Origin: a virus
Reading direction: 5' to 3' (one strand)
DNA length: 35,560 nucleotides
Virus record (IMG/VR): IMGVR_UViG_3300050821_000901
Location: 1 to 35,560 of that record
The position numbers and the translations under genes were made by a program. The notes beneath the pieces are model-generated. The model did not search any database, was not told the origin of the DNA, and saw only the letters and a list, made by a program, of their open reading frames with translations. Of the stretch, positions 6,164-29,293 are shown piece after piece (position 1 is the first letter of the stretch; each line of letters starts with the position of its first letter).

Positions 6164-6309
6164 GCGGTAAAATCCTCTCAGCTCCATCCCGATTCTTTTC
6201 CTTCATCGGCTCCCCGCTCTGGCGCGGGGAGCCGTCCTCGTTATAGGAATGTGCTACTGAGTAAGTCTCTTGTACCGCTCCCTCCGGCAAACAACGTACT
6301 TTTTGTTCC
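6164..6309 (+). promoter_or_regulatory. Intergenic region with GC hairpin and ACTGAGTAAG motif
   Basis: A second hairpin with an 11-bp perfect stem (6207-6217 with 6224-6234, loop TCTGGC) lacks a T tract, so it is not a standard terminator. It is followed by TTATAGG (-10-like) and by ACTGAGTAAG (6256-6265), a 10-mer found again upstream of the serine recombinase at 29027-29036. TACTTT (6297-6302) lies seven bases before the GTG of the next gene, which has no Shine-Dalgarno. The region therefore probably carries a promoter for the head genes, perhaps giving a leaderless message, but no full promoter can be assigned by eye. Confidence 0.4.
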
Positions 6310-7164: not shown

Positions 7165-8744
7165 ACAAGTCGTTCGCGTCCGAAGTCTTTGATCGCATCG
7201 TTTCGGAGTTCTCCCTCAAGGGCACACGATCCCTCACAGTTTTTCAGGGCGCGATGGGCGGTCGGCTCACGATGGACTGGATCGCGTCGATCCTCTCGGC
7301 GGATCAGGAAATCAAAGGGAACATGCGGCTCCTCCGCGCTCGTGCGCGCGAGCTGTCCCGAAACAATCCCGTCGCGAAGTCCTATCTCAAGCTCCTCGTC
7401 GCGAACGTGCTCGGCGAACTCGGCGTCGGCTATCAGGCTCAGGTCCGCAACAATGACGACACGCTGAACGAGGCGCTCAATAGAAAGATCGAAACGGCGT
7501 GGGGCGAATGGGTGAAGAAAGAGAATTGCACGGTCGAGGGGAAACTCTCGTTCCGGGCAGTTCAGAATCTCGTCCTCAAAAACGTCGCGACGGACGGCGA
7601 AGTGTTCATCCGGCTCGTCCCCGGCTTCACGGGGAATGCGTCCCGATTCGCGATTCAACTCTTCGACGCGGATCAGGTCGATCACTTGTTCTCCCGCTAC
7701 GCTTCGAAATCGGAGAACGAGATCCGCATGGGGATCGAAGTCGACGCGTGGGGAAAGCCGGTCGCGTATTACGTCAACATGAAGCATCCCTCCGATCTCG
7801 GCGGATCGCTCCTCCGCACGCGGATCCCGGCGACGGAGATGCTTCACTTGTACGATCCCGAACGCGTTGCTCAGACGCGCGGGATCACTTGGTTTCATCC
7901 GTGCATGGTCGAGATGAGGATGCTCGGCGGATATGTCGAGGCGGAACTTGTCGCGGCGCGAACGGGCGCGGCGAAAATGGGCTTCCTCAAAAACACGGAC
8001 GCATCGACGTATGAGACTCCGAATCCCGATGCGAAATACAGAATCGACGCGCAGCCGGGCGTGATCGAATCGCTTCCTCCGGGCTTCGATTTTCAGGCAT
8101 GGTCCCCAGATCATCCGGCGGGAGCTTTCCCGGCGTTCATCAAAGCGATGCTCCGTTTCATCGCTTCCTCGCTCGGCGTCTCCTACAACGCGCTCGCGTC
8201 GGACCTCGAGGGCGTGAATTATTCGTCCATGCGTTCGGGACTTCTGATCGAGCGCGATCAATGGCGGATGCTTCAGTCGTTCGTGAAAGAACAAATGCTG
8301 CAGCCGATCTTCGATCAGTGGATCGGGATGGCACTTCTCTCCGGCGCGCTCGTCCTCGATTCTCGCGATCCCGCGAAGTTCAAAGCGGGCAAGTGGGAAG
8401 CGCGCGGCTGGATGTGGGTCGATCCCCTGAAGGACGTTCAAGCGGGGATCCTCGCGATCAACGCCGGGCTGAAGTCCCGGACTCGTCTGATCTCGGACGA
8501 GGGCGGCGACTTCGAGGATGTCGCGGAGGAGCTTGCGCAAGAGGCGAAGATCGCGGACGAGTACGGACTCGACTTCACGGTCACTCAGACGGCGAAGGCT
8601 CCGACGGTGAACAAAGGTCCGAAGGACACGGTCGAGGCTGAAACGGATGACGACGACGCGAATCCGAAGGGCGACGACAAAGAGGAAAAATCGGCCGCAG
8701 CGGGCACGCGGCGGCGACTCATATCGGTCGGAGGAAGAAAATGA
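7161..8744 (+). CDS. Portal protein, lambda gpB family
   Basis: A 527-aa protein starting at the ATG overlapping the previous stop (ATGA). The sequence follows the lambda-type portal pattern: early RLLRARARELSRNNPVAKSYL, then LNRKIETAWGEWVKKENC, the central wing GEVFIRLVP, then LFDADQVDHL, IRMGIEVDAWGKPVAYYV and PATEMLHLYDPERVAQTRGI, and the C-terminal RFIASSLGVSYNALASDLEGVNYSSMRSG. It forms the dodecameric ring through which DNA enters and leaves and to which terminase docks. The last 50 residues are acidic (EAETDDDDANPKGDDKEEK) and probably face the capsid interior or are disordered. It is followed three bases before its stop by the next ATG, whose ribosome binding site lies inside this gene. 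Confidence 0.96.
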   Translation: MNKSFASEVFDRIVSEFSLKGTRSLTVFQGAMGGRLTMDWIASILSADQEIKGNMRLLRARARELSRNNPVAKSYLKLLVANVLGELGVGYQAQVRNNDDTLNEALNRKIETAWGEWVKKENCTVEGKLSFRAVQNLVLKNVATDGEVFIRLVPGFTGNASRFAIQLFDADQVDHLFSRYASKSENEIRMGIEVDAWGKPVAYYVNMKHPSDLGGSLLRTRIPATEMLHLYDPERVAQTRGITWFHPCMVEMRMLGGYVEAELVAARTGAAKMGFLKNTDASTYETPNPDAKYRIDAQPGVIESLPPGFDFQAWSPDHPAGAFPAFIKAMLRFIASSLGVSYNALASDLEGVNYSSMRSGLLIERDQWRMLQSFVKEQMLQPIFDQWIGMALLSGALVLDSRDPAKFKAGKWEARGWMWVDPLKDVQAGILAINAGLKSRTRLISDEGGDFEDVAEELAQEAKIADEYGLDFTVTQTAKAPTVNKGPKDTVEAETDDDDANPKGDDKEEKSAAAGTRRRLISVGGRK

Positions 8745-10891
8745 CGGCAACTCTCAAAACGCGGGAAAAAATCGGCGACTCTCTCCCGATGCTGACGCGC
8801 GAGTTCGAAGTGATCGAGATGACTCCGATCCCGAAACGCGAGAAGAAAGTCCTCACTCCCGAACAGGTCGCGGCGCGCGCGGCGCGGATCGCGGAGCGTA
8901 AGCGCAAGAAAGATGCGGGCGAGGCTCCCGATCCCGACGACGACGCGGACGACGACTCCGGTGAGAACTCGGACGACACGGGAAACGAGGGGAAAGAGGC
9001 TCAGGGAAAACGCGACGAGGATCGATTCGACATCTCGATCTCGTCGGAATATCCGGTCGAGCGATGGTTTGGAAAAGAGATCCTCGATCACTCCCCGGAC
9101 GCGGTCGATCTCTCCCGCGCGAAAAAGGGACTCAGTTTCCTCGATTCGCACGACGCGAAGTCGGTGATCGGGATCGTCGAGAACGCGAAAGTCGGCGATG
9201 ACAAAAAGCTCCGCGGACAGGTCCGTTTTTCTCGCTCAGCTCCGGCTCAGCAAGTCAAAACGGATATTCAGGACGGGATCCGGCGCTTCATCTCCGTCGG
9301 CTACATGGTCAACGAATACACGCTAGAAAAATCCTCGAAAGAGGAAGGCGATACGTTTCGTGCGACGAAATGGACTCCGATGGAGGCGTCGAGCGTCGGA
9401 GTTCCGGCGGATCCGACGGTCGGGCATGAACGCAAGGTCGGCGACAGGCTGTTCCCGGTTTTGGTACGTGGTGCAGTTGCTTCAGAAATAAATCCGGCTT
9501 CCGAGCCGAATTCTAGGGAGGTCAACGTGGAAACAGCAGAACAAGTAAAAAACTCACGGACCGCCGCCGCTGAAATCATTCGGCTCGGCAAGGTCCATGC
9601 GGTTGATTCAGCGATGGTCGAGACAGCGGTCGCGGAAGGGAAATCGGTCGAAGAGTTTTCGCGCATCGTTCTCGAAGAAGTCGCGAAGCGGTCGGCACGT
9701 CCGGGCAATGCTCCTCCGGCGGAGAATCAGGATCGGATCGAGCTGACGGACAAGGAACAGCGTCAGTACAACCTCGCTCGGGGAATTATGACGGCGATCT
9801 CGAACGACGAAGCGTCGAAGTCGGGATCCTCGAAGCGATTCAACTCTTTCGAGACGGAAGTCTCGCAAGAGATCGAGAAGAACTGGCGCGGCGCGCGTCA
9901 CGGCGGACTGTTCGTCCCGTGGAGCTTGCGTCACGCGTGGACTCCCGATCTGACAAAGCGTTTCGGCGAGCACGGCGGCGTGCAAAAACGCGCGGGGCTG
10001 GACTCCGGGACGGCGACGGCGGGGCAAGAGCTGAAGTTCACTGAACCCGGTGAATTCATTCAGTTCCTCTACAATCAGATGCGCGTGAAGGAACTCGGCG
10101 CGCGGACGATTGCGGGACTCCGCGACAACGTCTCCTATCCGAAACAGACGGGCAGGGCAACGGGATCATGGGTCGGGGAAAATCCCGGCTCGGATGTCGC
10201 TGACTCCGCGCTGACGCTCGGATCCATCGCAAGCTCCCCGAAAACGTATCAGTCCTCTTCGAGCTATTCGCGGCAGTTGCTCGCTCAGGCTGTCATCGAT
10301 GTCGACACGCTCGTCCGGGAAGATCTCGCGCGCGATCTCGCGCTCGCGATTGACTCCGTCGCAATCGTCGGCGGCGGATCGAATCAACCGACGGGCATCG
10401 TCCCCACATCCGGGGTCCAGTCCTACGTGATGCTCTCCGATGCTGGCAACGGCGGCGCTCCCGCGTGGGACGACATCGTCAAGATGTCGGAACTCCTCGA
10501 AGATGCGAACGCGGATCAGCTCGGCGGCGGCGCATGGCTGACGACTCCGGGCGTGAAGTCCTCGCTCAAGCGCACGGCGCGCTTGGGGAACACAATCGGA
10601 CTCCCGATCTGGGCGGACGACAGCACGGTCGACGGATACAAGGCGGCGTCCTCGAATCAGGTCACGAAGAACTCGACGAAAGGTTCGAGCGGCGCGACTC
10701 TCCACACTCTGATCCGTGGCATTTTCGAAACGATGGTGATCGGAATGTGGGGATCCGGCTTCGAACTCGTCGTCGATCCCTATCGGCTGAAGAAACAGGG
10801 AATGATCGAACTGACGACGTTCATGCTGACGGACGTTGTCCTGAAGTATCCGGTCGCGTTCGTCGTCGCGAAGTTCGTCGCCACAACGTAA
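8741..10891 (+). CDS. Prohead protease-major capsid protein fusion (HK97 type)
   Basis: A 716-aa polyprotein with ribosome binding site GGAGGAAG (8730-8737). Residues 1-60 are basic, 61-82 a poly-acidic linker. Residues about 95-235 match the HK97 (U35) prohead protease: LSFLDSHDAKSVIG with His137, RRFISVGYMV with Ser185, and WTPMEASSVGVPADP with Glu215, the expected triad. Residues about 263-400 are helical, like a scaffold or delta domain. Residues about 400-716 are an HK97-fold capsid protein: EFIQFLYNQMRVKELGARTI, KQTGRATGSWVGE, LVREDLARDLALAIDSVAIVG, GSNQPTGIV, FELVVDPY. The protease would free the capsid subunit and be lost. A strong ribosome binding site and in-frame GTG at 9527 allow separate capsid synthesis. 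No stop or frameshift breaks the fusion. Confidence 0.9.
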   Translation: MTATLKTREKIGDSLPMLTREFEVIEMTPIPKREKKVLTPEQVAARAARIAERKRKKDAGEAPDPDDDADDDSGENSDDTGNEGKEAQGKRDEDRFDISISSEYPVERWFGKEILDHSPDAVDLSRAKKGLSFLDSHDAKSVIGIVENAKVGDDKKLRGQVRFSRSAPAQQVKTDIQDGIRRFISVGYMVNEYTLEKSSKEEGDTFRATKWTPMEASSVGVPADPTVGHERKVGDRLFPVLVRGAVASEINPASEPNSREVNVETAEQVKNSRTAAAEIIRLGKVHAVDSAMVETAVAEGKSVEEFSRIVLEEVAKRSARPGNAPPAENQDRIELTDKEQRQYNLARGIMTAISNDEASKSGSSKRFNSFETEVSQEIEKNWRGARHGGLFVPWSLRHAWTPDLTKRFGEHGGVQKRAGLDSGTATAGQELKFTEPGEFIQFLYNQMRVKELGARTIAGLRDNVSYPKQTGRATGSWVGENPGSDVADSALTLGSIASSPKTYQSSSSYSRQLLAQAVIDVDTLVREDLARDLALAIDSVAIVGGGSNQPTGIVPTSGVQSYVMLSDAGNGGAPAWDDIVKMSELLEDANADQLGGGAWLTTPGVKSSLKRTARLGNTIGLPIWADDSTVDGYKAASSNQVTKNSTKGSSGATLHTLIRGIFETMVIGMWGSGFELVVDPYRLKKQGMIELTTFMLTDVVLKYPVAFVVAKFVATT
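9513..9529 (+). promoter_or_regulatory. Internal ribosome binding site and in-frame GTG start for capsid protein
   Basis: CTAGGGAGG (9513-9521), then TCAAC, then GTG (9527-9529), in frame with the fusion at codon 263. Spacing of five bases is ideal. It lies exactly between the protease domain and the scaffold/capsid part. Confidence 0.75.
9527..10891 (+). CDS. Major capsid protein with N-terminal scaffold domain (predicted internal-start product)
   Basis: Initiation at the internal GTG gives a 454-aa protein that starts VETAEQVKNSRTAAAEI and contains only the helical scaffold-like segment (about 130 residues) and the HK97-fold capsid domain. This size and layout match the stand-alone HK97 capsid precursor (delta domain plus capsid). 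Capsid is needed in hundreds of copies and protease in few, so a second start would solve the stoichiometry problem that a simple fusion creates. This is analogous in principle to lambda C/Nu3, where an internal start yields the scaffold. The product is predicted from sequence only. Confidence 0.6.
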   Translation: METAEQVKNSRTAAAEIIRLGKVHAVDSAMVETAVAEGKSVEEFSRIVLEEVAKRSARPGNAPPAENQDRIELTDKEQRQYNLARGIMTAISNDEASKSGSSKRFNSFETEVSQEIEKNWRGARHGGLFVPWSLRHAWTPDLTKRFGEHGGVQKRAGLDSGTATAGQELKFTEPGEFIQFLYNQMRVKELGARTIAGLRDNVSYPKQTGRATGSWVGENPGSDVADSALTLGSIASSPKTYQSSSSYSRQLLAQAVIDVDTLVREDLARDLALAIDSVAIVGGGSNQPTGIVPTSGVQSYVMLSDAGNGGAPAWDDIVKMSELLEDANADQLGGGAWLTTPGVKSSLKRTARLGNTIGLPIWADDSTVDGYKAASSNQVTKNSTKGSSGATLHTLIRGIFETMVIGMWGSGFELVVDPYRLKKQGMIELTTFMLTDVVLKYPVAFVVAKFVATT

Positions 10892-10930
10892 ACACCTTTC
10901 CCGTGCGCGAGCGCGGCGTCGTAAAAATCT

Positions 10931-10963
10931 CGACGGGGACGGGAGAGATCCCGTCCCTTGTCG
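10931..10963 (+). terminator. Stable hairpin after the capsid gene
   Basis: A 9-bp perfect stem GGGACGGGA (10936-10944) with TCCCGTCCC (10949-10957), loop GAGA, flanked by CGAC (10931-10934) and GTCG (10960-10963) which extend the pairing. It lacks a T tract. It may be a weak terminator or a 3'-end stabiliser that keeps capsid mRNA abundant relative to downstream tail genes. Confidence 0.5.
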
Positions 10964-10982
10964 GCAATCTGCGAGGGACAAA

Positions 10983-11243
10983 ATGTCAGACGCAACTGCA
11001 AAGACTCATAAGGGTGTCCGGCTCACGCGTTCAATCGTTCTCAACGGGGAACACGCGGAAAAGGGGTCGGAGCACGAAGTTCCGAACGCGCTCGCTCAGC
11101 GACTCGTCGGCGAAGGTTCGGCGGAGCACGTCGATCCGCAAGACGCTCCGACATCCGTGAATAGGATGGCGGCTCCCGATAACGCGGATCCCGTCACGAA
11201 GCAAGTCGCTCCGGCGGCTCCGAAGGTAAAGCACGGGAAATAG
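10983..11243 (+). CDS. Small head-region protein (post-capsid)
   Basis: An 86-aa protein with GAGGG about eight bases before the ATG. The pattern GVRLTRSIVLNGEHAEKGSEHEVPNALAQRLVGEGSAEHV (read in two parts: GVRLTRSIVLNGEHAEKG, then EVPNALAQRLVGEGSAEHV) matches small single-domain phage proteins that carry a short beta hairpin followed by a helix ending GxAE and lie between capsid and head-tail genes. The last 35 residues are Pro/Ala-rich and probably disordered. Role unknown; a head-completion helper is likely by position. The next ATG follows its stop directly. Confidence 0.65.
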   Translation: MSDATAKTHKGVRLTRSIVLNGEHAEKGSEHEVPNALAQRLVGEGSAEHVDPQDAPTSVNRMAAPDNADPVTKQVAPAAPKVKHGK

Positions 11244-11555
11244 ATGCCAACTCCCTCGACGGCTCCGGCTTTTGGCGACTCCGACATCCCGGCTCTCATG
11301 GCGGATATGGGGATCGCGATCACGGTCGGAGTCGTTCCGGGAGTGGGACTTCTCGACGAGATGGATCAGATCATCGTCGAGGATCTCACGCGTGGGCAAG
11401 TCGTGATGACGGCGACGACGCTCACGATTCAAACGTCGGCTTTCCCGGCGTGCAAGATCGGCGACGCGGTTGTCGCTAACGGAAAGAGCTTCACGATTCG
11501 CGAGCGGCTTCGTGAAGGCGACGGGGGTCTGACGAAGCTCTTGCTCGGGGCGTAG
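11244..11555 (+). CDS. Head-tail joining protein, gpFII-like
   Basis: A 103-aa protein, ATG directly after the previous stop. The C-terminal half (VVMTATTLTIQTSAF, KIGDAVVANGKSFTIRERL, REGDGGLTKLLLG) has the short beta-barrel pattern of lambda gpFII and related head-tail attachment proteins, where the phrase for a required value, then a gap, then DGxxTxLxL is conserved. These proteins bind the connector and accept the finished tail. Position after the capsid and before the tail terminator supports it. The N-terminal 35 residues are weakly conserved. A general head-completion protein is the alternative. Confidence 0.65.
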   Translation: MPTPSTAPAFGDSDIPALMADMGIAITVGVVPGVGLLDEMDQIIVEDLTRGQVVMTATTLTIQTSAFPACKIGDAVVANGKSFTIRERLREGDGGLTKLLLGA

Positions 11556-11575
11556 AAAATTCGAGGGAGGAAGCG

Positions 11576-12043
11576 ATGTCGAAAACAACGACGCTAGGAC
11601 TTGTGAAACCGACTCACGGGATCAATGAAGTCGAGGGCGAGACAGGCGGAGTTCCGAACGAAGCGGTCAATCTCGACGTTATCGACGCGGCGATCACAGC
11701 GCTTCAGGCGGGATCGCTCGAAACGGTCCCGGCGATCATCGCTGTGTCCGGCGCGATCACGCAAAAGCAAGGCGCGATCCGGCTCGGGAGTTCGGGCGCG
11801 CTCGCGATGACACTCGCGGATCCAGTCTCCGGCGGTCCGGGGACGGGCGACGATGGGAAGCGGCTCTCGATCTTCGCGGCGACAGCTCACGCTCACGTCG
11901 TCACGGTGACGGGAGGACTCGCGGGCGGGACGAATAACACGGTCACGCTCGGCGGCGCGGTCGGCGATATGTTCGAAGTCGAGGCGCTCGCGGGGAAGTG
12001 GTTTATCCGTCCCTCGATCAACGCGACTCAGTCGCACGTCTAG
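11576..12043 (+). CDS. Virion-surface beta protein (possible decoration or fibre-like protein)
   Basis: A 155-aa protein with GAGGAAG before the ATG. It starts MSKTTTLGLVKPTHGINEV and VNLDVIDAAITAL, the start seen in many phage fibre or fibre-like proteins. The C-terminal 90 residues (IRLGSSGALAMTLADPVSG, KRLSIFAATAHAHVVTVTGG, FEVEALAGKWFIRPSI) match a beta domain common in phage appendage and capsid-surface proteins, in which the strand-turn phrases for LTxA, xLTIxS, HTVT and GxWxV recur. Its place among head-tail genes favours a capsid or neck decoration role; this is inferred from position. No enzyme motif is present. Confidence 0.6.
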   Translation: MSKTTTLGLVKPTHGINEVEGETGGVPNEAVNLDVIDAAITALQAGSLETVPAIIAVSGAITQKQGAIRLGSSGALAMTLADPVSGGPGTGDDGKRLSIFAATAHAHVVTVTGGLAGGTNNTVTLGGAVGDMFEVEALAGKWFIRPSINATQSHV

Positions 12044-12055
12044 CAAGGGGGAATT

Positions 12056-12511
12056 TTGGCGTCATCGATTCGCGAGCAAATCATGGTCGCGCTCGTCGCG
12101 GCTATCAGCTCCGGCGGTCCCTCGGGGCTGACTGTTCATCGGGAGCGGACTCGTCCAATAGAGACGGACTCTCTCCCGGCGATCATGGTTTACGCGGACG
12201 ACGACGTTCCGAAAACTCTCGCTCAGCAAGTCTACGACGCTCCTCTCACGGAGCGTCAGTTCTCGCTGACGCTTGAGTGTCGCGCGGCGGGATCGTCCGG
12301 CGTCTCAATCGACGCGGCGCTCGATCCGATTCTCGTTTTCGCGGCTCAGACGGTACTCGCGAACGAGCGATTCGGCGGACTCGCGAGCGGAGTCGAGGAA
12401 GGGCGCACGGTTTGGGCGTCGAAGGAAGGCGACACTCCGGTCGCGGCGGCGAAGCTCAGTTTCACGATTAGGTACCGGACGAGCAGGCTCGATCCGACTT
12501 CGAAGAGTTAA
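12056..12511 (+). CDS. Tail terminator or tail completion protein (gpU-like)
   Basis: A 151-aa protein starting at TTG with AAGGGGGA upstream. The start IREQIMVALVAAI, the phrase DSLPAIMVYADDD, the strand RQFSLTLECRA and the end KLSFTIRYRTSRLDP follow the fold order of small phage tail terminators: a helix, then a strand with a conserved Pro, then a long beta meander. These proteins cap the growing tail tube and set its length together with the tape measure. It lies just before the tail tube gene, the usual slot. The alternative is a tail completion protein of the gpZ type. No in-frame ATG lies nearer than residue 10, which would remove the conserved helix start. Confidence 0.65.
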   Translation: MASSIREQIMVALVAAISSGGPSGLTVHRERTRPIETDSLPAIMVYADDDVPKTLAQQVYDAPLTERQFSLTLECRAAGSSGVSIDAALDPILVFAAQTVLANERFGGLASGVEEGRTVWASKEGDTPVAAAKLSFTIRYRTSRLDPTSKS

Positions 12512-12523
12512 GGGAGGAAAAAT

Positions 12524-13318
12524 ATGTCCGTAAAGTATCCGATTGCACACGTCCCGATGCTCGGCAAAGGGTCGATCATGCTTGATCGCTTCGATCTGAC
12601 GACGGGACTTCCGACGGGTTTCCAGCATCTCGGAAACTGCACGAAGTTCGAGCTGGATCTGAAGGACGACATCGCGGAGCTGTATCAGTCGCTCAACAAA
12701 AACGTCACTTTGATCGCGACGGCGGTGAAGAAACGGCAGCCGAAGATCTCGATCACGGGGACGGACTTCAGCTCCGATCACATCGCGCTCGTTCAGATGT
12801 CGGCGGGAAAAACGGCGCTCGCGACGACGGCGACGACGTTCACGGGGGAAACGCTCATCTCGGCGGCGCAAGCTCCGAACGCTATCGGGCGCTATTTCCG
12901 GCTCCTGCATAACAACGTCGACAACGTCACGACTCCTCCGGTGCTCACGTCGAACTCCGTCACTCTCGTCGCGGGGACGGACTACGTCGTCGCGGACGCG
13001 GCGTCCGGCTTGATCTATATCCCGGCGGGATCCTCAATCGCGACGCACGCGGTGACTTGCACGTACGGGACGCTCGTCGGCTCGAACGATCAGGTCGCGG
13101 GCGCGACGATCCCATTCGTTCAGGGACATCTCCTCTTCACTCCCGATCCGGTCGACGGTCAGAAGATCGGCTGCGATATTTGGCGGGTCAATCTGAATCC
13201 GAACGGACAGCTCGGCTTGATCGCTGACGACTACGGCAATTGGTCGCTCGACGGGAACATCCTCGACGACACGGCGAATCATCCGAACGCTCCGTTCTAT
13301 CAGTACACGTTCTTCTAG
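12524..13318 (+). CDS. Major tail tube protein
   Basis: A 264-aa protein with GGGAGG six to ten bases before the ATG. It sits between the tail terminator and the tail assembly chaperones, the position of lambda gpV. Features: an N-terminal segment with GKGSIMLDRFD, a helix-forming DLKDDIAELYQSL, the strand KKRQPKISITGTDF, and a beta C-terminus (TIPFVQGHLLFTPD, KIGCDIWRVNLNPNG, LIADDYGNWSLDGNILDD). The last part matches tail tube subunits, where the strand before the end contains D-WxL-G. It forms stacked hexamer rings through which DNA passes. The middle portion (about residues 140-190, VTLVAGTDYVVADAASGLIYIP) looks like an extra surface beta hairpin domain. Confidence 0.75.
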   Translation: MSVKYPIAHVPMLGKGSIMLDRFDLTTGLPTGFQHLGNCTKFELDLKDDIAELYQSLNKNVTLIATAVKKRQPKISITGTDFSSDHIALVQMSAGKTALATTATTFTGETLISAAQAPNAIGRYFRLLHNNVDNVTTPPVLTSNSVTLVAGTDYVVADAASGLIYIPAGSSIATHAVTCTYGTLVGSNDQVAGATIPFVQGHLLFTPDPVDGQKIGCDIWRVNLNPNGQLGLIADDYGNWSLDGNILDDTANHPNAPFYQYTFF

Positions 13319-13459
13319 GACGGGCGGGTAAGCGCTGGCGCGTAAGTTCCGGCGTGGGGGCCTTGTCCTAGTCGAGCGGGGGAGAGTCGCAGATGTAGCC
13401 ATCCCGGCTCTCCCCTGTCTTTAGAAGTCAGCGGGCGGCGATCCCGACCCGGAGGAAAA
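13319..13459 (+). terminator. Intergenic hairpin between tail tube and tail chaperone genes
   Basis: An 11-bp stem GGGGAGAGTCG (13379-13389) with CGGCTCTCCCC (13405-13415), one G-T wobble and a 15-base loop, followed by TGTCTTTA. It may partly terminate transcription after the highly needed tube protein. The rest of the gap holds no gene that I can support; the ribosome binding site GGAGG of the next gene ends it. Confidence 0.55.
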
Positions 13460-13930
13460 ATGCTCGAAGATCTCATCACTCTCGATGGCCGCAAGTTTCG
13501 CGGCGACGCTCAGTCTCTCTCCGCATCGCAAGACGACTACATCATCGCGCGGCTCCGGCAATGCGGCGCGATGGACATCCTCACGGATAACGACGGCGGC
13601 CCTTCCCGCACGAAAGAACAAAAAGCGGAGGATCTCCTCACGAGGATCCTTCTCTCCGGCAAGACGGCGGAGATCCTCGCGGGTTGTCTGACGGAGGAAG
13701 GAACGAAGTGGACGCGGTCCGAGGCGGATCGTAACGCGGCGATCTTCTCGGAGATCACGGACACGGCGGAAAAGCTCACGATGCGTCAGTCCGTCACGAT
13801 GTTCGTCGCGGGTTTTTTTACGTTCGGGGAACGTGCGTCGGAGAGTTCCCCGAAATCTTCGAACCCGACCGGAAAGGCCCACCGTTCAGGGAACGCGGCG
13901 GGCGCGACTTCGGGGACTTCGGCGCGCTGA
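13460..13930 (+). CDS. Tail assembly chaperone, gpG-like (zero-frame product)
   Basis: A 156-aa protein with CCGGAGG before the ATG. It is mainly helical: YIIARLRQCGAMDILTDNDG, KAEDLLTRILLSGKTAEILAG, SEADRNAAIFSEITDTAEKL. After residue 118 the zero frame enters Ser/Gly/Thr-rich sequence (ESSPKSSNPTGKAH) typical of a tail that is read by default but is not the essential part. It lies between the tail tube and the tape measure, like lambda G. These chaperones coat the tape measure during tail assembly. A slippery T run at codons 118-120 sends a fraction of ribosomes into the -1 frame to make the longer GT-type protein. Confidence 0.85.
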   Translation: MLEDLITLDGRKFRGDAQSLSASQDDYIIARLRQCGAMDILTDNDGGPSRTKEQKAEDLLTRILLSGKTAEILAGCLTEEGTKWTRSEADRNAAIFSEITDTAEKLTMRQSVTMFVAGFFTFGERASESSPKSSNPTGKAHRSGNAAGATSGTSAR

Positions 13931-14136
13931 TCCGCGAGGTCGCGCGAAGCGACGCGGATCGGATGGAGAAGGTTTTCGAGTGGCCGCTCCGGGATATTTT
14001 TCTCGCGTACATCGAAAGACTTCGCGAGTCGGCGCGGCGGAACTATGAGATCGAGCTGATCGTGTGGAGTTCACTGGCGCCACACCAGCGAAGGAAAACG
14101 GATCCTCCGGCGCTTCCCCGGATCCTCAGAGGGTAA
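13460..14136 (+). CDS. Tail assembly chaperone fusion, gpGT-like (-1 frameshift product)
   Basis: A -1 shift at 13813-13819 joins 120 zero-frame residues to 105 residues of the -1 frame (from codon TAC at 13819 to the TAA at 14134), about 225 aa in total. The -1 segment reads like a real protein: VGEFPEIFEPDRKGP, GALIREVARSDADRMEKV, FEWPLRDIFLAYIERLRE, NYEIELIVWSSLAP. The phrase with FEWPLRDIFLAYIE has no start codon of its own with a ribosome binding site. In lambda the T domain of gpGT recruits the tail tube protein to the tape measure. The -1 frame ends directly before the tape measure ATG, so all bases are accounted for. Confidence 0.85.
13811..13854 (+). promoter_or_regulatory. Programmed -1 frameshift signal
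   Basis: The zero frame reads GGT TTT TTT ACG with a run of seven T (13813-13819), on which both tRNA(Phe) can slip back one base. Three bases downstream starts a perfect 10-bp hairpin, TTCGGGGAAC (13823-13832) with GTTCCCCGAA (13845-13854), loop 12 bases. Confidence 0.9.
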
Positions 14137-16860
14137 ATGGCTGACGCTCCCGAAATCAAAGTCAAACTGACGGCGGAGGACACGGGCGTCTCGGCGGCGA
14201 TTAAGGAACTCGGCGCTCAGCTCAAAACTCTGAAGAAAAGTCAGGACGAGACGGCGGCGTCGGCGTTCAACCTGGCCGGGGCGTTCAAGGCTATCGTCGC
14301 GGGGGCGGCGGGACTCGGATTCCTCCGCATCGGACAAGAGGCGTTCCAGTCCGCGACGAACATCGGGAAGCTCTCTGACAAGACGGGCATCTCGACTCAG
14401 ACGCTCAGCGTTTTCAATAAGGTCGCGGAGAATGTCGGAGCGTCAACGGAGTCCGTCGACAAGTCCCTCATCAAAGCAGCGAAATCGATCACGGAATTCC
14501 AGCAAGGCAGCACGAAAGCGGCCGGCGGGTTCAAACTCCTCAATCTCACGGCTCAGGACTTCGCGGGACTCAACGCGGATCAGAAACTTCAGCTCGTCGT
14601 CGCGAAGCTCGGCGCGATGGAAAAGGGCTTCCAGAAAGCGACGGCGACATCACAGATCTTCGGGAAGGGCGCGAGCGATCTCACGCTCGTCGCGAACTCT
14701 CTCGCGGCTCAGGGATTCGACAAAGCGACGGAGTCGACGGCGAAGCTCGGACTCTTGCTCGATCAGACGACGACGGACGACTTCCGCGCGGCGGCGGCGT
14801 CCATGCAAGAACTTCAGGACGTGGGGAAAGGGATCGCGACTCAGTTCGAAGCAGGGATGCTCCCGGCGATCTCCGATGTCGGCGAGGCGCTCGTCGATTC
14901 GATGACGCAAGGCGGCGTGTCTTTCAAAACGCTCGGACAATACGCGGGGGATGTCATCCGCTCAATCGCGCTCGTGTTTATCGGATTCGGACAGACGGTC
15001 GGGACTGTCATCGAATCGATCTATGACGCGTTTTCTCAGCTCTGGAAAGAGATCAAAAACGAGGGGACGACGACCTTCAGGGCGCTCGGCGACGCTGTTC
15101 ACGGGAATTTCACGCAGGCAGTCAACGAGATGCTCGCTGGACAGAAGCGCTCGGCGGAGAACATCTCCGAAACGATCCAGCGTCAGAAGGCGATCTACGG
15201 CGCGCTCGCGGACTCGTTCAAGTCCGACTACAACAATCTGTTCCCATCGGCGGAGGAAGAGGAAAAACGGAGGAAAGCGCGGATCGCGAAGCTCCGTCCC
15301 GACAAACAGGTCGAGGCTCCTGAACCGGGACCGCCACCGGCACCGAATGACGCGGCGGCGAAGGCGCGGCTCGCGCTCTTAGAGAAACAGGTTCAGGACG
15401 AACTCGAACTCCATCGCGCTCAGGCGGCGCAGCAAGCGGAGATCGACAAAGAGCTGTACGACAAGGGCGAGATCACGCTGAAGGAATACTACGCGCGGCG
15501 TCGCGCGGAGATCACGGCGGCGTCGGCGGAAGAGACGGCGATCCTTCAGCGAGGACTCGCGGCGGCTCAGGAAGAAGTCGCGCGCACAACGGCGGCGGCG
15601 AGCGCGGAGGGTCAGTCTCCGAAGGAAAAGGACAGGAGCGAAGCGGCGCGGCTGAATTCGCTCGCGAAAGTCGACGAGCTTCAGACGAAGATCGCGACGA
15701 CGCAACTGAAGGCGACGACGGATCAGAAGAAACTCGACGACGAGGAGTTCAAGGCGAAGCAAACGAATAACGCGGCGCTCCTCGAATTCGAGAAAGAGAT
15801 CGACACGTCGGCGGCGAAACGGAAGGAAGCGGCGGCGGCGGAGATCGAGCTTGAGAAGCAAAAACTCTCCGTGATCCTCGCGCAATCCGGCGCGTCGAAG
15901 GAACAGATCGCGGCGGAGCTTCAGCGATTCGCGACGGCGAAGGCGAACGCGGCGGCGTTCGCGGACGAGCAGGCGGCGGGACAGGCGGCGCTCAAGGAAC
16001 TCGCGGACGAGAAGGCGGCGGTCGAACAGAAAGTTCAGTCCGGTCAACTCTTCTCGATTCAGGGACAGGAACAGATCCGTCAGATCGAGGCGGCGCGGCT
16101 CCCGGTCCTTCAGCAGATCGCGGCGGCGATGCTCGAACAGGCGAAGGCGACGGGAGACGAGTCGAAGATCGCTCAGGCGGAGGACTTCTCGAAACAGGTC
16201 GCGGCGATTCAGGTTCAAGCGAATCTCGCAGGACAGCAAGTCGCTCAGCTCAAACAGGGCCTCGAGTCCTCGCTCGTCGGCGGCTTCACTCAATTTTTCG
16301 ACACGGTTGGACGCGGGACGGAGTCCGTCGCTCAGTCGTTTAAGAATCTCGCGGGATCGATCATCGGATCGCTCGCGAAGATGACGGCTCAGATGCTCGC
16401 TCAGATCGTCGTCGCGAAGCTCCTCAAATTGGCTCTCGGCGGGACAGGATTCTCCGGCGGCGGGGCGGTCCCGGCGGGACAGGGACTCGCGGACGGCGGA
16501 CTCATTAAGGGCCCGGGCGGTCCGAAGGCGGACGCGATCCCGGCGCGGCTCTCGGCGGGCGAGTTCGTCGTGAAGGCGGACGCGGTCGCTTCGTTCGGCG
16601 CGCACAATCTCGAAGCGATCAACCGCGGATTGAAAGTCCCGTCGTTCGAGAATCTCGCGCTCCCGAAGTTCGCGGACGGCGGACTCGTGGGACAGGCGAC
16701 GGGCGCGGGAAGTAGCGGGAGCATCAATCTCGGGATCGGACTCGACGAGGGGCTGATCCTGAAGCATCTCTCCTCGAAGCAAGCGGGACGCATCGTCCTC
16801 GATCACATCACGAGCAATCCGAAAGCGGCGTCGAAGGCGCTCGGAAGGAGTCAAGGGTGA
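14137..16860 (+). CDS. Tail tape measure protein
   Basis: A 907-aa protein, the longest gene here, starting one codon after the GT frame ends. It begins IKVKLTAEDTGVSAAIKELGAQL, a typical tape-measure start. Hydrophobic segments lie near residues 48-66 (FKAIVAGAAGLGFLRIG) and 270-290 (RSIALVFIGFGQTVG). Residues about 380-720 are long coiled coils rich in Ala, Glu, Gln and Lys. The C-terminus has the usual Gly-rich phrases ADGGLIKGPGG, DAIPARLSAGEFVVKADAV and FADGGLVG. It fixes tail length and is ejected with DNA; 907 residues at the usual 1.5 angstrom per residue predicts a tail of roughly 130 nm (inference). It overlaps the next gene by GTGA. Confidence 0.95.
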   Translation: MADAPEIKVKLTAEDTGVSAAIKELGAQLKTLKKSQDETAASAFNLAGAFKAIVAGAAGLGFLRIGQEAFQSATNIGKLSDKTGISTQTLSVFNKVAENVGASTESVDKSLIKAAKSITEFQQGSTKAAGGFKLLNLTAQDFAGLNADQKLQLVVAKLGAMEKGFQKATATSQIFGKGASDLTLVANSLAAQGFDKATESTAKLGLLLDQTTTDDFRAAAASMQELQDVGKGIATQFEAGMLPAISDVGEALVDSMTQGGVSFKTLGQYAGDVIRSIALVFIGFGQTVGTVIESIYDAFSQLWKEIKNEGTTTFRALGDAVHGNFTQAVNEMLAGQKRSAENISETIQRQKAIYGALADSFKSDYNNLFPSAEEEEKRRKARIAKLRPDKQVEAPEPGPPPAPNDAAAKARLALLEKQVQDELELHRAQAAQQAEIDKELYDKGEITLKEYYARRRAEITAASAEETAILQRGLAAAQEEVARTTAAASAEGQSPKEKDRSEAARLNSLAKVDELQTKIATTQLKATTDQKKLDDEEFKAKQTNNAALLEFEKEIDTSAAKRKEAAAAEIELEKQKLSVILAQSGASKEQIAAELQRFATAKANAAAFADEQAAGQAALKELADEKAAVEQKVQSGQLFSIQGQEQIRQIEAARLPVLQQIAAAMLEQAKATGDESKIAQAEDFSKQVAAIQVQANLAGQQVAQLKQGLESSLVGGFTQFFDTVGRGTESVAQSFKNLAGSIIGSLAKMTAQMLAQIVVAKLLKLALGGTGFSGGGAVPAGQGLADGGLIKGPGGPKADAIPARLSAGEFVVKADAVASFGAHNLEAINRGLKVPSFENLALPKFADGGLVGQATGAGSSGSINLGIGLDEGLILKHLSSKQAGRIVLDHITSNPKAASKALGRSQG

Positions 16861-18056
16861 GCGTTCAAACTGGATCGGCTACGGACTACGCGGATCTCCT
16901 CAATCAGCTCGACACGTTTCTGACCAGTACGGGGATGGCGCTGACTCCCTCGTTCGTCGGCGTCGGCAACGGAACGATCTCCGCTCTCGGCGGATCCGCA
17001 TCCGTCGCGGAGACGATCACGGTCACTTTCACGTCCGCGACGGCGTTCGGCGTCGTCGGCTCCGTCTCGGGATCCCTCGGAACTGGCGTCGTCGGGACTC
17101 CGTTCACTTCGACAAAAACGAACTTCACGATCACGGCGGGCGGGACGGCGTTCGTCGCGACGGACGCGTTCACGTTCGCGGTCGCTCCTCCGTGGACTTC
17201 GAAACGGCGCACGAGCGGATCGGAGATGATCTGGCAGGCGAACGGAAACGGCGGACTCGACGCGATCCTCGTCGGCGCGAAGATCTTCTCGAACGTCACG
17301 GGCGACTATTACAATTGGCGGCTCGGCGGGTTTCAGGCGTTCGACTCCTCGCTCCTGTTCACTCAACAATCGGGCTACGTCGGCGGCATGGGCAATCCTC
17401 AGACGAAATGCTCTCCGATCCTTCCTCTCTGGAACTCGACGATCCCCTATTGGTTCATCGCGAACGGGAGACGTGTGATCGTCATCGCGAAAGTTTCGAC
17501 GGTCTACGCGGTCGCTTATCTCGGACTGATCTCTTCGTACATGGCTCCCGGCTCGTATCCGCTCCCTCTTTGCGTCGGCGGGTCGCTCGCGTTTCAGGGC
17601 GGCGGCGGCATTTTCGCGAGCGAACCTGCAGCCACGTCGACGAATTTCAGATGGAGCTATTCGGGAACGGAGATGCGCGCGTTCCCGATCTGCAATCCGT
17701 CGGCGATGTCGAATGACGCGGACTCCGTGTTGCGGCTTTTGCTCCCGACGGGGGTGTGGCGCGGATTCGACAACTCGGCGGCGGAGTCGGCGTTTGGAAA
17801 AGTGTGGCCGTACTCGGGACTCACGGCGGCGGCGTGGGACTGGCGTCCGAATCTCGACGGAGGCTATCCGCTCCTCCCCATCGTCCTTCACGACAACATC
17901 CCGAACGTGTACGGCGAACTCGAAGGCATCCGCGCGATCACTGGATTCTCGCAAGGCGCGGAGAACTTGATCGTCGTGAACGGGATCACATATCTCGTGA
18001 TGCAGAACGTTTTCCGAAACACAAAGTCCGACTTTTTTGCGGTCCGACTCACGTAG
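16857..18056 (+). CDS. Tail protein with GVGNGTI beta module (paralogue A)
   Basis: A 399-aa protein starting at the GTG overlapping the tape measure stop. It starts MSVQTGSATDYADLLNQLDTF, the same kind of start as the next gene (MSYQNGSATSTTDLLQQL), so the two are paralogues. Residues about 33-112 hold a beta module (FVGVGNGTISALGG, FGVVGSVSGSLGTG, NFTITAGGTAFVATDAF) that recurs inside the tail-tip protein at 21621. The rest is a beta-rich domain with many aromatic residues ending FFAVRLT. Position after the tape measure suggests a distal tail or side-fibre component. No enzyme motif is seen. Confidence 0.65.
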   Translation: MSVQTGSATDYADLLNQLDTFLTSTGMALTPSFVGVGNGTISALGGSASVAETITVTFTSATAFGVVGSVSGSLGTGVVGTPFTSTKTNFTITAGGTAFVATDAFTFAVAPPWTSKRRTSGSEMIWQANGNGGLDAILVGAKIFSNVTGDYYNWRLGGFQAFDSSLLFTQQSGYVGGMGNPQTKCSPILPLWNSTIPYWFIANGRRVIVIAKVSTVYAVAYLGLISSYMAPGSYPLPLCVGGSLAFQGGGGIFASEPAATSTNFRWSYSGTEMRAFPICNPSAMSNDADSVLRLLLPTGVWRGFDNSAAESAFGKVWPYSGLTAAAWDWRPNLDGGYPLLPIVLHDNIPNVYGELEGIRAITGFSQGAENLIVVNGITYLVMQNVFRNTKSDFFAVRLT

Positions 18057-18065
18057 AGAGGCGCT

Positions 18066-19070
18066 ATGAGCTATCAGAACGGAAGCGCGACGAGCACGAC
18101 GGACTTGCTTCAGCAGCTCGTCACGTTCCTCGTCGCGGCGGGATGGACTCTGGACATGAGCCAGATCGAGGGGACTGGCTGGCGCGCGCATCTTCACAAG
18201 TCGGGAAACTATGTGCATCTCCGCGCGGCGGAAGCGGAGGCGGTTTTTACGCAGCACACATCCGGGGTCGGCTACTCTCTCAATCTCTATACGGGGATCG
18301 GTTTCAATTCCGGGCAGCCGTGGAACAATCAGGGGAGCGGCGCTCCGGTCGGATTTTTGGGATTCAATCCAATCGGCGTGGCGGCGGTCACGAGCGCGGG
18401 TCCGTTCACGAACTACTATTTTATGACGGACAGCTCGGCGGACAACGTCGTCGTCATCATTGAAAAAACTCCCGGACTCTTCGTGCATGTCGGATGGGGA
18501 CTCTCCCTGAATCTGGCGGGATCCATCACGGGCGGCGCTTACTTCTTTGGATCTTCGGGCGGCAATCACGCGAACACAACGATAGGGGGCGTTCCGGCGA
18601 ACACTCCCGGATACACGTCGACGGCGCTCTGTCCGGGTGTGATGGCGGATTCGTTCGGACAGGACGACGTTTGTTTCGTCCGGGCGGACGTGGATGCGTT
18701 CACGGGGAATTGGATCGGCATAGGCGCGAACGTAACGGCGGCGACGGGCTACACGGGGAAAGTCGGCGCTTCCTCCGTGAAGGGGAAGAACATCAATCCG
18801 GCGGCTTCGATCCCCATGTACGCGCAATCGGACGGCGTGACGGAGTTTCAGGCGCTTCAGACTTCCGCGCTCGACGGGCGAGCGAATCTCCTCCCGGTTT
18901 ATCTGTGGGCGAATCGCGACGGAACTTCGACGGGTTATTCGCTTCTCGGCTCGCTCCCGATTGTGTTCGCTGCGAACGGCGTCGGGAACGGTTTCTCGAA
19001 CGCGAGCGAGTACACAATCGGCTCCGACACTTACAAGATGTTCCCGAATTTTGCGGTCCTCAAGGTCTAA
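18066..19070 (+). CDS. Tail protein (paralogue B)
   Basis: A 334-aa protein with AGAGAGG before the ATG. The N-terminal 25 residues match the previous gene in pattern, and the C-terminus (YTIGSDTYKMFPNFAVLKV) matches its end (GITYLVMQNVF, then FFAVRL). It lacks the GVGNGTI module, so the two genes probably share a core fold and differ by module insertion. The body is Gly/Ser/Thr-rich and beta-rich, as expected of a virion surface protein. It lies between the tape measure and the BR0599-type protein. Likely a distal tail or fibre subunit; the exact role is unknown. Confidence 0.65.
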   Translation: MSYQNGSATSTTDLLQQLVTFLVAAGWTLDMSQIEGTGWRAHLHKSGNYVHLRAAEAEAVFTQHTSGVGYSLNLYTGIGFNSGQPWNNQGSGAPVGFLGFNPIGVAAVTSAGPFTNYYFMTDSSADNVVVIIEKTPGLFVHVGWGLSLNLAGSITGGAYFFGSSGGNHANTTIGGVPANTPGYTSTALCPGVMADSFGQDDVCFVRADVDAFTGNWIGIGANVTAATGYTGKVGASSVKGKNINPAASIPMYAQSDGVTEFQALQTSALDGRANLLPVYLWANRDGTSTGYSLLGSLPIVFAANGVGNGFSNASEYTIGSDTYKMFPNFAVLKV

Positions 19071-19073
19071 CGG

Positions 19074-20795
19074 ATGACGACTTTCGCGGGAGAGTTTTTG
19101 CAGCTCGGACCGGGTCGGCTGACGCCGAAGAACCTTTCGTCGGACGTGACGGGAGCGACGGCGATCACGTCGCTGTCGGCGTCGCTCTCCTCGGCGTCCA
19201 AGAATGCATCGCGGGGAACTCCGCAACCGGCGATATCGATCTCCGCTCCCGCTCCGAACATCGGGCAGATCGAGGAAGCGTTCGGCGGGCGTCTTTTTTA
19301 TCGGATCATCACGGTCCCGACGACGGAGGCGCTTCAGTTTGTTTTGACGGCGACGCAATTCCCGGTCGAAGTCTGGAACACGTTTCAGGACTCCGACGAG
19401 ATCCTCGAAACGATCACGATCACGGGGTCCGGCGGACTTACGCTCTCGGATCCTTTCGGCGAGCCGCTCCTGTTCGCGGCTCAGGGATCGCGGATCTATC
19501 AAGCGCTCGTCCCTTCCTCCGGTCCGACTCAGATCGATCAGAGCGTGATCTTCGCGTTTCTCTCCGGGATCAATGGGCTGATCCTCGTCACGGGATCCCG
19601 GATCGCGCTGTTCAGCGTGCAACCGGACTGGTCGGAAGGAATCGCGGAGTCGATCTCCTATCTGACGGATGTCCTGAAGGCGTACAGCGACAACGAACAG
19701 CGGCGCGGACTCCGGCAATTTCCCCGGCGCGCGCTCAGGTATCGCGCGCTCGCGCTCAACGCGCGCGACGCGGCGGGAATGGAGTCGCTCGTGTGGGGCT
19801 GGCAGCATGAACCGTACGGCGTCCCGTGGTGGCCGGATGCGACTCCCGTGACGGCGGACACTCCGGCAGGATCCTTCTCGATCCCCTGCAATACGGTCGA
19901 CAGGCAGTTCGCGGCGGGCGGACTGTGCTGCATCTTTTCGAGCGAGTTCGTGTTCGAGGCGCTCACGGTCGAATCCGTCTCCCCGACGGGCGTCACGTTC
20001 ACGTCCCCGACGCAACTCGACTGGAAAGCGAATCCGAGTCAGATTGTGATGCCGGTCTTTCTGGCGCGGCTCGGATCCTCCGTGAACGTGTCGCGCTTCA
20101 GCTCGGAGATCGATCAGATCGATCTCGATTTTATCGGCGAGGCGCTTCAGGCGGCTCCGGCTCCGTCGACGACGCTCACTCAGTACAAAGGCTTCGACGT
20201 TCTCGAAATCGCTCCGAACTGGCGCGATGCTCCGCTCAAGCGGACGTACACGCGCTCCCTCGTGACGGTCGATCCGAAGATCGGTCCGATCACGGTGATC
20301 GACAAGGGCGGCTCGGCGATTGTGAAACAGCCGTTCCCGTGGTTTCTGACGAATCACGCGGCGGTCACTACTTTCCGCGCGTTCTTGCTCCGGCGCTTCG
20401 GACAGCTCAATCCCTTCTGGCTTCCGACGTGGGATCAGGATCTCATCCTCGCGTTCGACGTGGGATCCGGCGACACGGGGATCGTCATCAAATCGGAGTT
20501 TTATTCGCGCTTCTTTTTTCCGAATCCTGCTCGGCGCTTCATCGCGTTCATTCCGACGGACGGCTCCTCGAACGTCTATCGCAAGATCACTTCGACGAAC
20601 GACAACGGCGACGGAACGGAGTCGCTCGTCCTCGACACTCCGACGGGGAAGAACTTCCCGGCGGCGTCGACGATGATCTCGTTCCTCACACTCGCGCGAT
20701 GCGCGTCCGACGACAATCAAATCGAGTGGCTCACGGCGGATCTCGCTGAAGTGAATCTCGAAGTTCAGGAAGTCCCGAGGGAGCTTCCGGCATGA
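19074..20795 (+). CDS. Distal tail or baseplate protein, 573 aa
   Basis: Starts at the ATG just after the previous stop. Residues about 25-65 are a low-complexity linker (ATAITSLSASLSSASKNAS, then TPQPAISISAPAPN). The central and C-terminal parts form a beta-rich tail domain with phrases LRQFPRRALRYRALALNARD, MESLVWGWQHEPYGVPWWPD and FPWFLTNHAAVTTFRAFLLRR, then FWLPTWDQDLILAFDV. The pattern of Trp and Pro and the place before the BR0599 protein match a conserved distal-tail family in siphoviruses with gene-transfer-agent-like tips. It overlaps the next gene (ATGA at 20792-20795). It probably caps the tube and connects to the hub. Confidence 0.7.
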   Translation: MTTFAGEFLQLGPGRLTPKNLSSDVTGATAITSLSASLSSASKNASRGTPQPAISISAPAPNIGQIEEAFGGRLFYRIITVPTTEALQFVLTATQFPVEVWNTFQDSDEILETITITGSGGLTLSDPFGEPLLFAAQGSRIYQALVPSSGPTQIDQSVIFAFLSGINGLILVTGSRIALFSVQPDWSEGIAESISYLTDVLKAYSDNEQRRGLRQFPRRALRYRALALNARDAAGMESLVWGWQHEPYGVPWWPDATPVTADTPAGSFSIPCNTVDRQFAAGGLCCIFSSEFVFEALTVESVSPTGVTFTSPTQLDWKANPSQIVMPVFLARLGSSVNVSRFSSEIDQIDLDFIGEALQAAPAPSTTLTQYKGFDVLEIAPNWRDAPLKRTYTRSLVTVDPKIGPITVIDKGGSAIVKQPFPWFLTNHAAVTTFRAFLLRRFGQLNPFWLPTWDQDLILAFDVGSGDTGIVIKSEFYSRFFFPNPARRFIAFIPTDGSSNVYRKITSTNDNGDGTESLVLDTPTGKNFPAASTMISFLTLARCASDDNQIEWLTADLAEVNLEVQEVPRELPA

Positions 20796-21589
20796 GTTTC
20801 GACGCTCTCGAAAAACAAGGCTCCGGCGCTGAACCGTACGAGCTGTATCTGTTTCAGGGGACGGGGATCTTCTATGCGCTCACGGGCGCGGACGAGACGA
20901 TCACGTATCTCGGGAACGAATTCGTCCCGACGACGATCTCGCGGTCGGAGTCCGAACAGTCGAACGAAGTCGTCTCGGGACAGCTCAAGGTCTATCTCCC
21001 GACTTCGCATCCGCTCGCGAGGCTCTTGCTTCCGTATCTCCCGACATCACCGATCGCGGTGACGATCTACGGATCCCACTACTCGGACACGGAGACGGTC
21101 GTCCTCTTCACGGGGACGGTCGCGAGCGCGCGCTTCACGGATCAATGCGAGCTGATCTGTAACTCGGATCAGTATCTCTTGCAGAGAAAAATCCCTCAGA
21201 AGCTCTATCAGGCTCCGTGCTCCCATGTTTTCGGGGATGTGGGATGCACGGTCGATCTCTCGCTTCACACGTTCGCGGGGACGATTGCGTCGATTGATTC
21301 GACGGGGACGATCCTCACGATCACGGGTTTCGGCGCGCTCCCGGACCCGCTGACGGGCGGCTATCTTCAGCGAGGGAACGACGTGCGGATGATCGTCGCG
21401 AACTCCGGGTCGAGCGTCACGCTTCTGAGTCCGATCCCCGGCTTGCAGATCGGCGCTTCAGTTCTCGGCATTGCGGGCTGTCCGCTCACGTTCGCGGGAT
21501 GCGCCCACTATAAGAACACTTTCAATTTTCTCGGCTTCGATCTGATCCCGACGATCAATCCGTTCGACGGATCGGCGAGCATCGGATGA
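20792..21589 (+). CDS. Phage BR0599/DUF2163-type tail-tip protein
   Basis: A 265-aa protein. The N-terminal half is a beta barrel ([47 protein letters not shown]). The C-terminal half carries the family hallmark cysteines: [19 protein letters not shown], then [17 protein letters not shown], then [13 protein letters not shown]. In gene transfer agents and related siphophages this protein is a hub component of the tail tip between the distal tail protein and the peptidase or megatron. No NlpC/P60 peptidase gene follows here, unlike in gene transfer agents, because the next gene is already the large tip protein. The start overlaps the previous stop. Confidence 0.9.
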
Positions 21590-21620
21590 GGCGAAAGGCG
21601 GTGCGATCTTCTTCTGGCTA

Positions 21621-29119: not shown

Positions 29120-29293
29120 ATGCAAAACGCGAACGTCGTCGACGCTTTAATTGAGATCGGAAATGAACGGCGACGGATTCTAGCGAAGATCAAGGAAGCG
29201 GTGGAGAAACACGATCTCGATCTGACGTTCCGCTATGCGGAGTTGCTCGTCGGTATCCGCGAGAGGGAAGAGGCGAACGACAAAAAGCAATGA
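29120..29293 (+). CDS. Small charged protein coupled to the recombinase, 57 aa
   Basis: The ATG follows AGAAGGT at a suitable distance. The 57-aa product MQNANVVDALIEIGNERRR... is highly charged and helical (ILAKIKEAVEKHDLDLTFRYAELLVGIRE). It overlaps the recombinase start by ATGA, so both are made together. Small genes next to serine integrases sometimes encode recombination directionality factors; these share no common sequence, so this role is only a possibility. No HTH is obvious. Confidence 0.6.
   Translation: MQNANVVDALIEIGNERRRILAKIKEAVEKHDLDLTFRYAELLVGIREREEANDKKQ

Follow-up and report, generated by a model that had tools for sequence, protein, structure and literature searches.

The slippery heptamer of bacteriophage lambda is of the GGGAAAG type. 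It belongs to the tail assembly chaperone gene, which lies between the genes for the major tail protein and the tape measure protein and gives rise to a short protein, gpG, and a frameshifted one, gpGT, by a shift in the -1 direction (PMC5009743). A GGGAAAG heptamer has been named for another phage gene as well (PMC9965538), and sequence similarity between the tail chaperones of different phages is described as low (PMC5009743). Slip sites composed of T are also in print. The tail chaperone pair gp17.5/gp17.5* of phage SPP1 is attributed to a putative -1 shift at UUUUUUC, with a shared N-terminal part given as 112 aa (PMC6316719), and phage P2 is reported to make the tail protein pair E and E+E' (91 and 142 aa) by a -1 shift on TTTTTTG, a poly-T heptamer kept in P2-like phages at which the A-site tRNA re-pairs from UUG to UUU; the slip site of the P2-like phages is reported to lack a downstream hairpin (PMC3091744). 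In the Vandenendeviridae and Andersonviridae, represented by the myoviruses Adele and Moogle, the TAC-N/TAC-NC pair is described as having a poly-T motif, GTTTTT, at the end of TAC-N across divergent genera (PMC12846349).

The DNA analysed here, called the window, comprises 35,560 bases and corresponds to one entire IMG/VR virus record. An earlier, sequence-only reading of it had proposed that a run of seven T signals a -1 frameshift to a GT-type tail chaperone. Gene order, frame-specific conservation and the recurrence of the heptamer in 74 out of 75 distinct slip regions support this proposal. In our view the locus is best explained as a tail assembly chaperone gene of the lambda G/GT type with a programmed -1 ribosomal frameshift, at a probability of about 0.94.

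Reading frames and gene order

Table 1. Positions of the features at and around the putative G/GT gene in the window.
Feature	Position	Strand	Remarks
Major tail protein gene	12524..13318	+	phrog_807, 'major tail protein with Ig-like domain', E 1.2e-33; directly upstream of G
Gene G, zero-frame tail assembly chaperone (putative)	13460..13930	+	ORF; 156 aa, 120 up to the slip and 36 after it
Slippery heptamer T_TTT_TTT	13813..13819	+	zero frame GGT TTT TTT; T_TTT_TT[T/C] in 74/75 distinct relatives
Candidate stimulatory hairpin	13823..13854	+	arms 13823-13832 and 13845-13854, 12-nt loop; -17.0 kcal/mol
T part, -1 frame	13819..14136	+	105 codons and TAA; with G residues 1-120, a predicted 225-aa GT protein
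Tape measure protein gene	14137..16860	+	phrog_24, phrog_2854, phrog_9483 and others, 'tail length tape measure protein'

The frames around the T run are as the sequence-only reading had described them. GGT TTT TTT forms codons 118-120 (13811-13819) of the ORF that begins at 13460, and ACG comes next. Past this point the zero frame continues for 36 codons rich in S, A, G and T, the low-complexity tail noted earlier, whereas the -1 frame entered at 13819 closes with a TAA at 14134-14136, so that the ATG of the tape measure gene follows it immediately. The -1 frame is open from 13735, and its first ATG, GTG or TTG is T codon 48, inside the conserved domain; the claim that it lacks a start of its own thus holds for the window. 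Since no start codon occurs before the middle of the domain, the 105-codon T part would probably be missed by automatic annotation.

Profile matches of the flanking genes place G/GT between the major tail protein and the tape measure, the lambda position that had been proposed for it. The same order is found in the testable relatives: 65 of 72 have the major tail protein upstream and 61 of 70 the tape measure downstream. A search within the window detected no tRNA and no Rfam family. The expected number of T7 runs per dinucleotide shuffle of the window is 0.27; the window alone is only partly beyond chance, and the weight of the evidence therefore comes from its relatives.

Several other features of the record may be mentioned. 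Residues ~786-852 of the tape measure share 45-67% identity with tape measures of Mycobacterium, Gordonia, Streptomyces and other phages among the 20 matches listed, and the rest of the protein is unmatched in those same matches. A single ORF (8741-10891) combines a prohead protease (PF04586, a weak match) with an HK97-type capsid protein (PF05065). An ORF at 802-1518, adjoining the terminase genes, matches phrog_842, labelled glucosyltransferase. In the J-like tail protein (21621-24512), residues 1-66 match phrog_1180, which bears the label 'tail assembly chaperone', and a collagen-like stretch lies near residues 774-830. The record also encodes two unlike integrases, a large serine recombinase (PF00239, PF13408, PF07508) at 29290-30909 and a tyrosine integrase (PF00589) at 32182-33375.

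Relatives of the locus

Scans of viral contigs and of genome contigs, together with the window's own, yielded 251 loci, many of which were the same contigs fetched repeatedly; these 251 loci and the window collapsed to 75 distinct scorable slip regions. Outside the 75 are L107, L250 and L251, which end inside G, and L177, for which no G match was found (its GGT TTT TTT was read by eye). A set of 51 sequences was derived from 107 loci and the window, which gave 53 distinct regions, by leaving out L091 (broken T) and L107 (contig end). The pN/pS analysis of the overlap used 50 of these (L062 was also left out) and that of the T-only block 43, after seven more without the WPxR[DE] motif had been set aside; a further analysis used 49 of the 51, without L057 and L062. 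The most distant relatives have a best identity to the query rows of ~28% in G and 39% in T. One relative, L063, comes from a Terriglobia MAG, on a contig of 159 kb; this points to Acidobacteriota as the hosts of some members of the family.

Conservation of the slip heptamer

An in-phase heptamer is present in 74 of the 75 distinct slip regions, as T_TTT_TTT in 67 and as T_TTT_TTC in 7, and in all 74 the zero frame is G and the -1 frame is T, with the switch exactly at the heptamer. The codon that precedes the two Phe codons ends in T in every one of the 74, where codon usage would predict 7.8. This codon is GGT in 48 relatives and CTT, GTT, GCT, ACT, GAT, AAT, CAT, AGT or CCT in the other 26, so that ten different codons specifying ten amino acids occupy the position. 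Fitch counts on the GT protein tree give at least 15 amino-acid changes for this residue and 0 changes for its third-base T; the third base of the P-site Phe codon likewise changed 0 times and the last heptamer base 6 times, between T and C only, while in each of the eight preceding codons the third base changed 12-29 times. Elsewhere in the same genes Phe is encoded by TTT in just 87 of 364 codons. Judged by these counts, it is the bases and not the residues that are conserved at the slip site, and the 74 relatives show cleanly how the slip bases stay fixed while the encoded amino acid varies.

The single exception, L091 (contig IMGVR_UViG_3300050821_022284), has GGC TTT TTT and has lost the wobble T. 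Its G is intact, and its -1 T frame is broken by a stop soon after the site and by indels. Loss of the heptamer is what one would predict for a site that decays after T has been lost, although this is one case only. Relatives that lack the T run and keep two separate starts would have spoken for a different arrangement; L091 is the only one found without the heptamer, and its T is the broken one just described. (The start of the tape measure gene is still recognisable in L091.)

A run of T may also cause RNA polymerase to slip. By adding a U on the run, the polymerase would produce a fraction of mRNA that encodes GT in one frame. The 8-T (24) and 9-T (6) runs found in 30 of the 74 relatives would favour such transcriptional slippage, which is reported to be possible on shorter runs in some bacteria (PMC1088944), but the other 44 have only six or seven T, and the selection against A/T runs that is reported for a large share of genomes is seen at nine (PMC1088944). 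Furthermore, the last heptamer base is C in 7 of the 74. Restriction of this position to T and C, the two bases read by one tRNA-Phe, fits re-pairing of that tRNA, and coding for Phe demands the same. We infer that it is the ribosome rather than RNA polymerase that slips, and regard slippage during transcription as improbable overall, though it may occur on the longer runs.

Coding constraint in the -1 frame

Constraint on the protein sequence follows the frame that a ribosomal frameshift would use. In the overlap (50 sequences), the -1 frame has the lowest pN/pS, 0.34, against 1.47 for the 0 frame and 1.23 for the +1 frame, which contains 24 stops. In the T-only block (43 sequences) the -1 frame has a pN/pS of 0.44, and in the 20 codons that precede the slip the zero frame has 0.59. 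By this measure the -1 frame, which had been called protein-like from its appearance in the window, is a real protein.

Such a protein might be the product of a separate T gene, overlapping G or coupled to it, with a start of its own, in which case the T run would be incidental. In 28 of the 51 sequences the open -1 frame does contain some ATG, GTG or TTG ahead of T codon 10, mostly at -37 or -45, inside G. No such start is present in the remaining 23, including the window, where the first available start falls within the conserved domain, and a slip heptamer that is invariant in all but one of the 75 regions argues against its being incidental; we hold a separate gene to be very unlikely. Homopolymer runs are prone to sequencing error, and an error of this kind, or decay to a pseudogene, might have broken one continuous GT gene. 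However, 74 of 75 distinct contigs (that of the Terriglobia MAG among them) share the -1 relation, coding constraint is in frame on both sides of the slip, and the zero-frame tail is 28-51 codons long in 51/51; these findings leave this explanation a negligible probability, and in our reading of the relatives it is already refuted.

Hairpin and other candidate stimulators

The window contains, as claimed, a perfect 10-bp hairpin three bases after the T run, in which TTCGGGGAAC and GTTCCCCGAA form ten perfect pairs. (An inverted-repeat listing with a 20-base distance limit missed this hairpin with its 12-nt loop; a scan with loops of 3-20 nt found it.) Perfect 10-bp hairpins with loops of 3-20 nt are expected 1.86 times per shuffled window and were seen at three places (four matches, two of which overlap at 6207-6208). 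A 10-bp hairpin alone is unremarkable; only its place after the T run is remarkable. In the window, the 71 nt downstream of the slip are no more stable than dinucleotide shuffles (z 0.15), and the -17.0 kcal/mol of the stem was reached by 0 of 150 synonymous recodings.

In the relatives the exact hairpin is not kept. Across 49 distinct rows the pairing of the window stem is that of shuffles (74.7% versus 74.3% of cells paired), and covariation supported neither the window hairpin nor an alternative stem located further 3'. Overall stability gave no evidence of a family-wide structure either: synonymous recoding yielded a mean z of -0.81 for 51 relatives, but control stretches of the same genes gave +0.68 to -0.91. 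When stems were required to begin 3-9 nt after the heptamer, z averaged -0.97 (n=51) or -0.99 (n=74), and such a stem was significantly better than synonymous recodings (5% level) in only 14 of 51 relatives, or 19 of 74. The stem begins 7 nt after the heptamer in 18 of the 51, 6 nt in 15 and 5 nt in 4. The 3-nt spacer of the window, which the sequence-only reading had called atypical, does differ from these prevailing distances of 5-7 nt; it is not a property of the family and goes with the long stem that only the window and a few relatives have. Comparison of the T run and the hairpin arms in related phages, proposed as a check at the outset, separated the two, since the run is kept and the arms are not. 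On this comparison, the 10-bp hairpin is not a family-wide feature; in the window it may stimulate the slip.

Upstream of the heptamer, SD-like 4-mers (GAGG, GGGG or GGAG, for example in L009, L025 and L066) are found in 29 of 74 relatives versus 8.7 expected from synonymous recoding, a comparison in which relatedness is ignored. All of them end 10-11 nt before the heptamer, and the window is without one. Compensation between an SD-like element and a hairpin was examined and discarded (Spearman 0.09, p 0.45). In our reading the heptamer is essential and the stimulators vary. A stronger version, which we offer tentatively and consider rather doubtful, is that GT production depends on one fixed element, the poly-U Phe-Phe heptamer, while the stimulators turn over freely: a strong downstream hairpin would serve in some lineages, such as that of the window, and an SD-like element ending 10-11 nt before the heptamer in others, and some would have little of either. 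If this were true, the family would be a natural series in which to see how the chaperone ratio holds while the stimulator changes.

Proposed mechanism

In the programmed ribosomal frameshift that we favour, most ribosomes would terminate at the end of G (13930). A minority would have tRNA-Phe in place on the two UUU codons and slip back by one base on U_UUU_UUU, after which both tRNAs could re-pair fully with UUU; these ribosomes would continue in the -1 frame to 14136 and make GT. If the roles are as in lambda, the tape measure would be coated by G, and the T part of GT would recruit the major tail protein. Assays in E. coli are reported to place U_UUU_UUY and H_HH.U_UU.Y among the more efficient -1 motifs, the efficiency of H_HH.U_UU.Y being ascribed to the A-site tRNA, which keeps its cognate pairing (PMC4066793). 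An older comparison in E. coli, cited in PMC5009743, counts against the proposal, A_AAA_AAG having been much more shift-prone than U_UUU_UUU.

The protein family and known systems

Searches of the sequences assign these proteins to no described family. Neither Pfam nor PHROGs yielded one for G, as 51 G sequences gave scattered single-member matches to no consistent family (best E 0.0071 and 0.014, respectively); PHROGs yielded none for T (49 T sequences, scattered single-member matches, again without a consistent family, best E 0.03), and the T part of the window matched no Pfam family. A G profile run against PDB sequences returned only an unrelated match at E 0.92. Against INPHARED phages, the T parts of the window and of the distant member L178 gave nothing at E 1 and that of L180 only an unrelated match at E 0.6, and megablast of window positions 8000-22000 against phages gave no match. 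Searches with predicted structures were little different. The AF2 model of G (pLDDT 89) matched nothing in BFVD under E 0.001; at rank 4 was a 'Tail assembly chaperone' of Arthrobacter phage Kitkat (E 0.034, prob 0.97, TMq 0.49). The same model found nothing in the PDB under E 0.8, a second look at the PDB was uninformative (best Z 3.6), and for the T part no structural match fell below E 0.6. The predicted fold of G thus bears a weak similarity to phage proteins, one of which is named a tail assembly chaperone. It appears that the protein family, in the sense of one without a Pfam or PHROG match here, is new; the mechanism is ordinary, and the comparison supports it strongly.

With respect to known systems, the locus resembles lambda in its layout, its predicted short and frameshifted products and the direction of the proposed shift, and differs in having an all-T heptamer where lambda has one of the GGGAAAG type. 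The site itself is less unusual than the sequence-only reading had suggested when it called poly-U slips less common, given the published cases of SPP1 (PMC6316719) and P2 (PMC3091744) and the reported efficiency of such motifs in E. coli (PMC4066793). The Adele-type phages share the poly-T character of the site, with a shorter T motif. P2 has the same kind of tail protein pair and -1 shift; its heptamer ends in G, so that its A-site tRNA leaves a UUG codon, and its proteins are shorter. The UUUUUUC of SPP1 is the very variant found here in 7 of 74 relatives, and the shared N-terminal part of its chaperone pair compares with 120 residues in the window. To these systems the present family would add GT-type frameshifting at an unusually rigid all-T heptamer in uncultured tailed phages, the window itself being from a soil phage.
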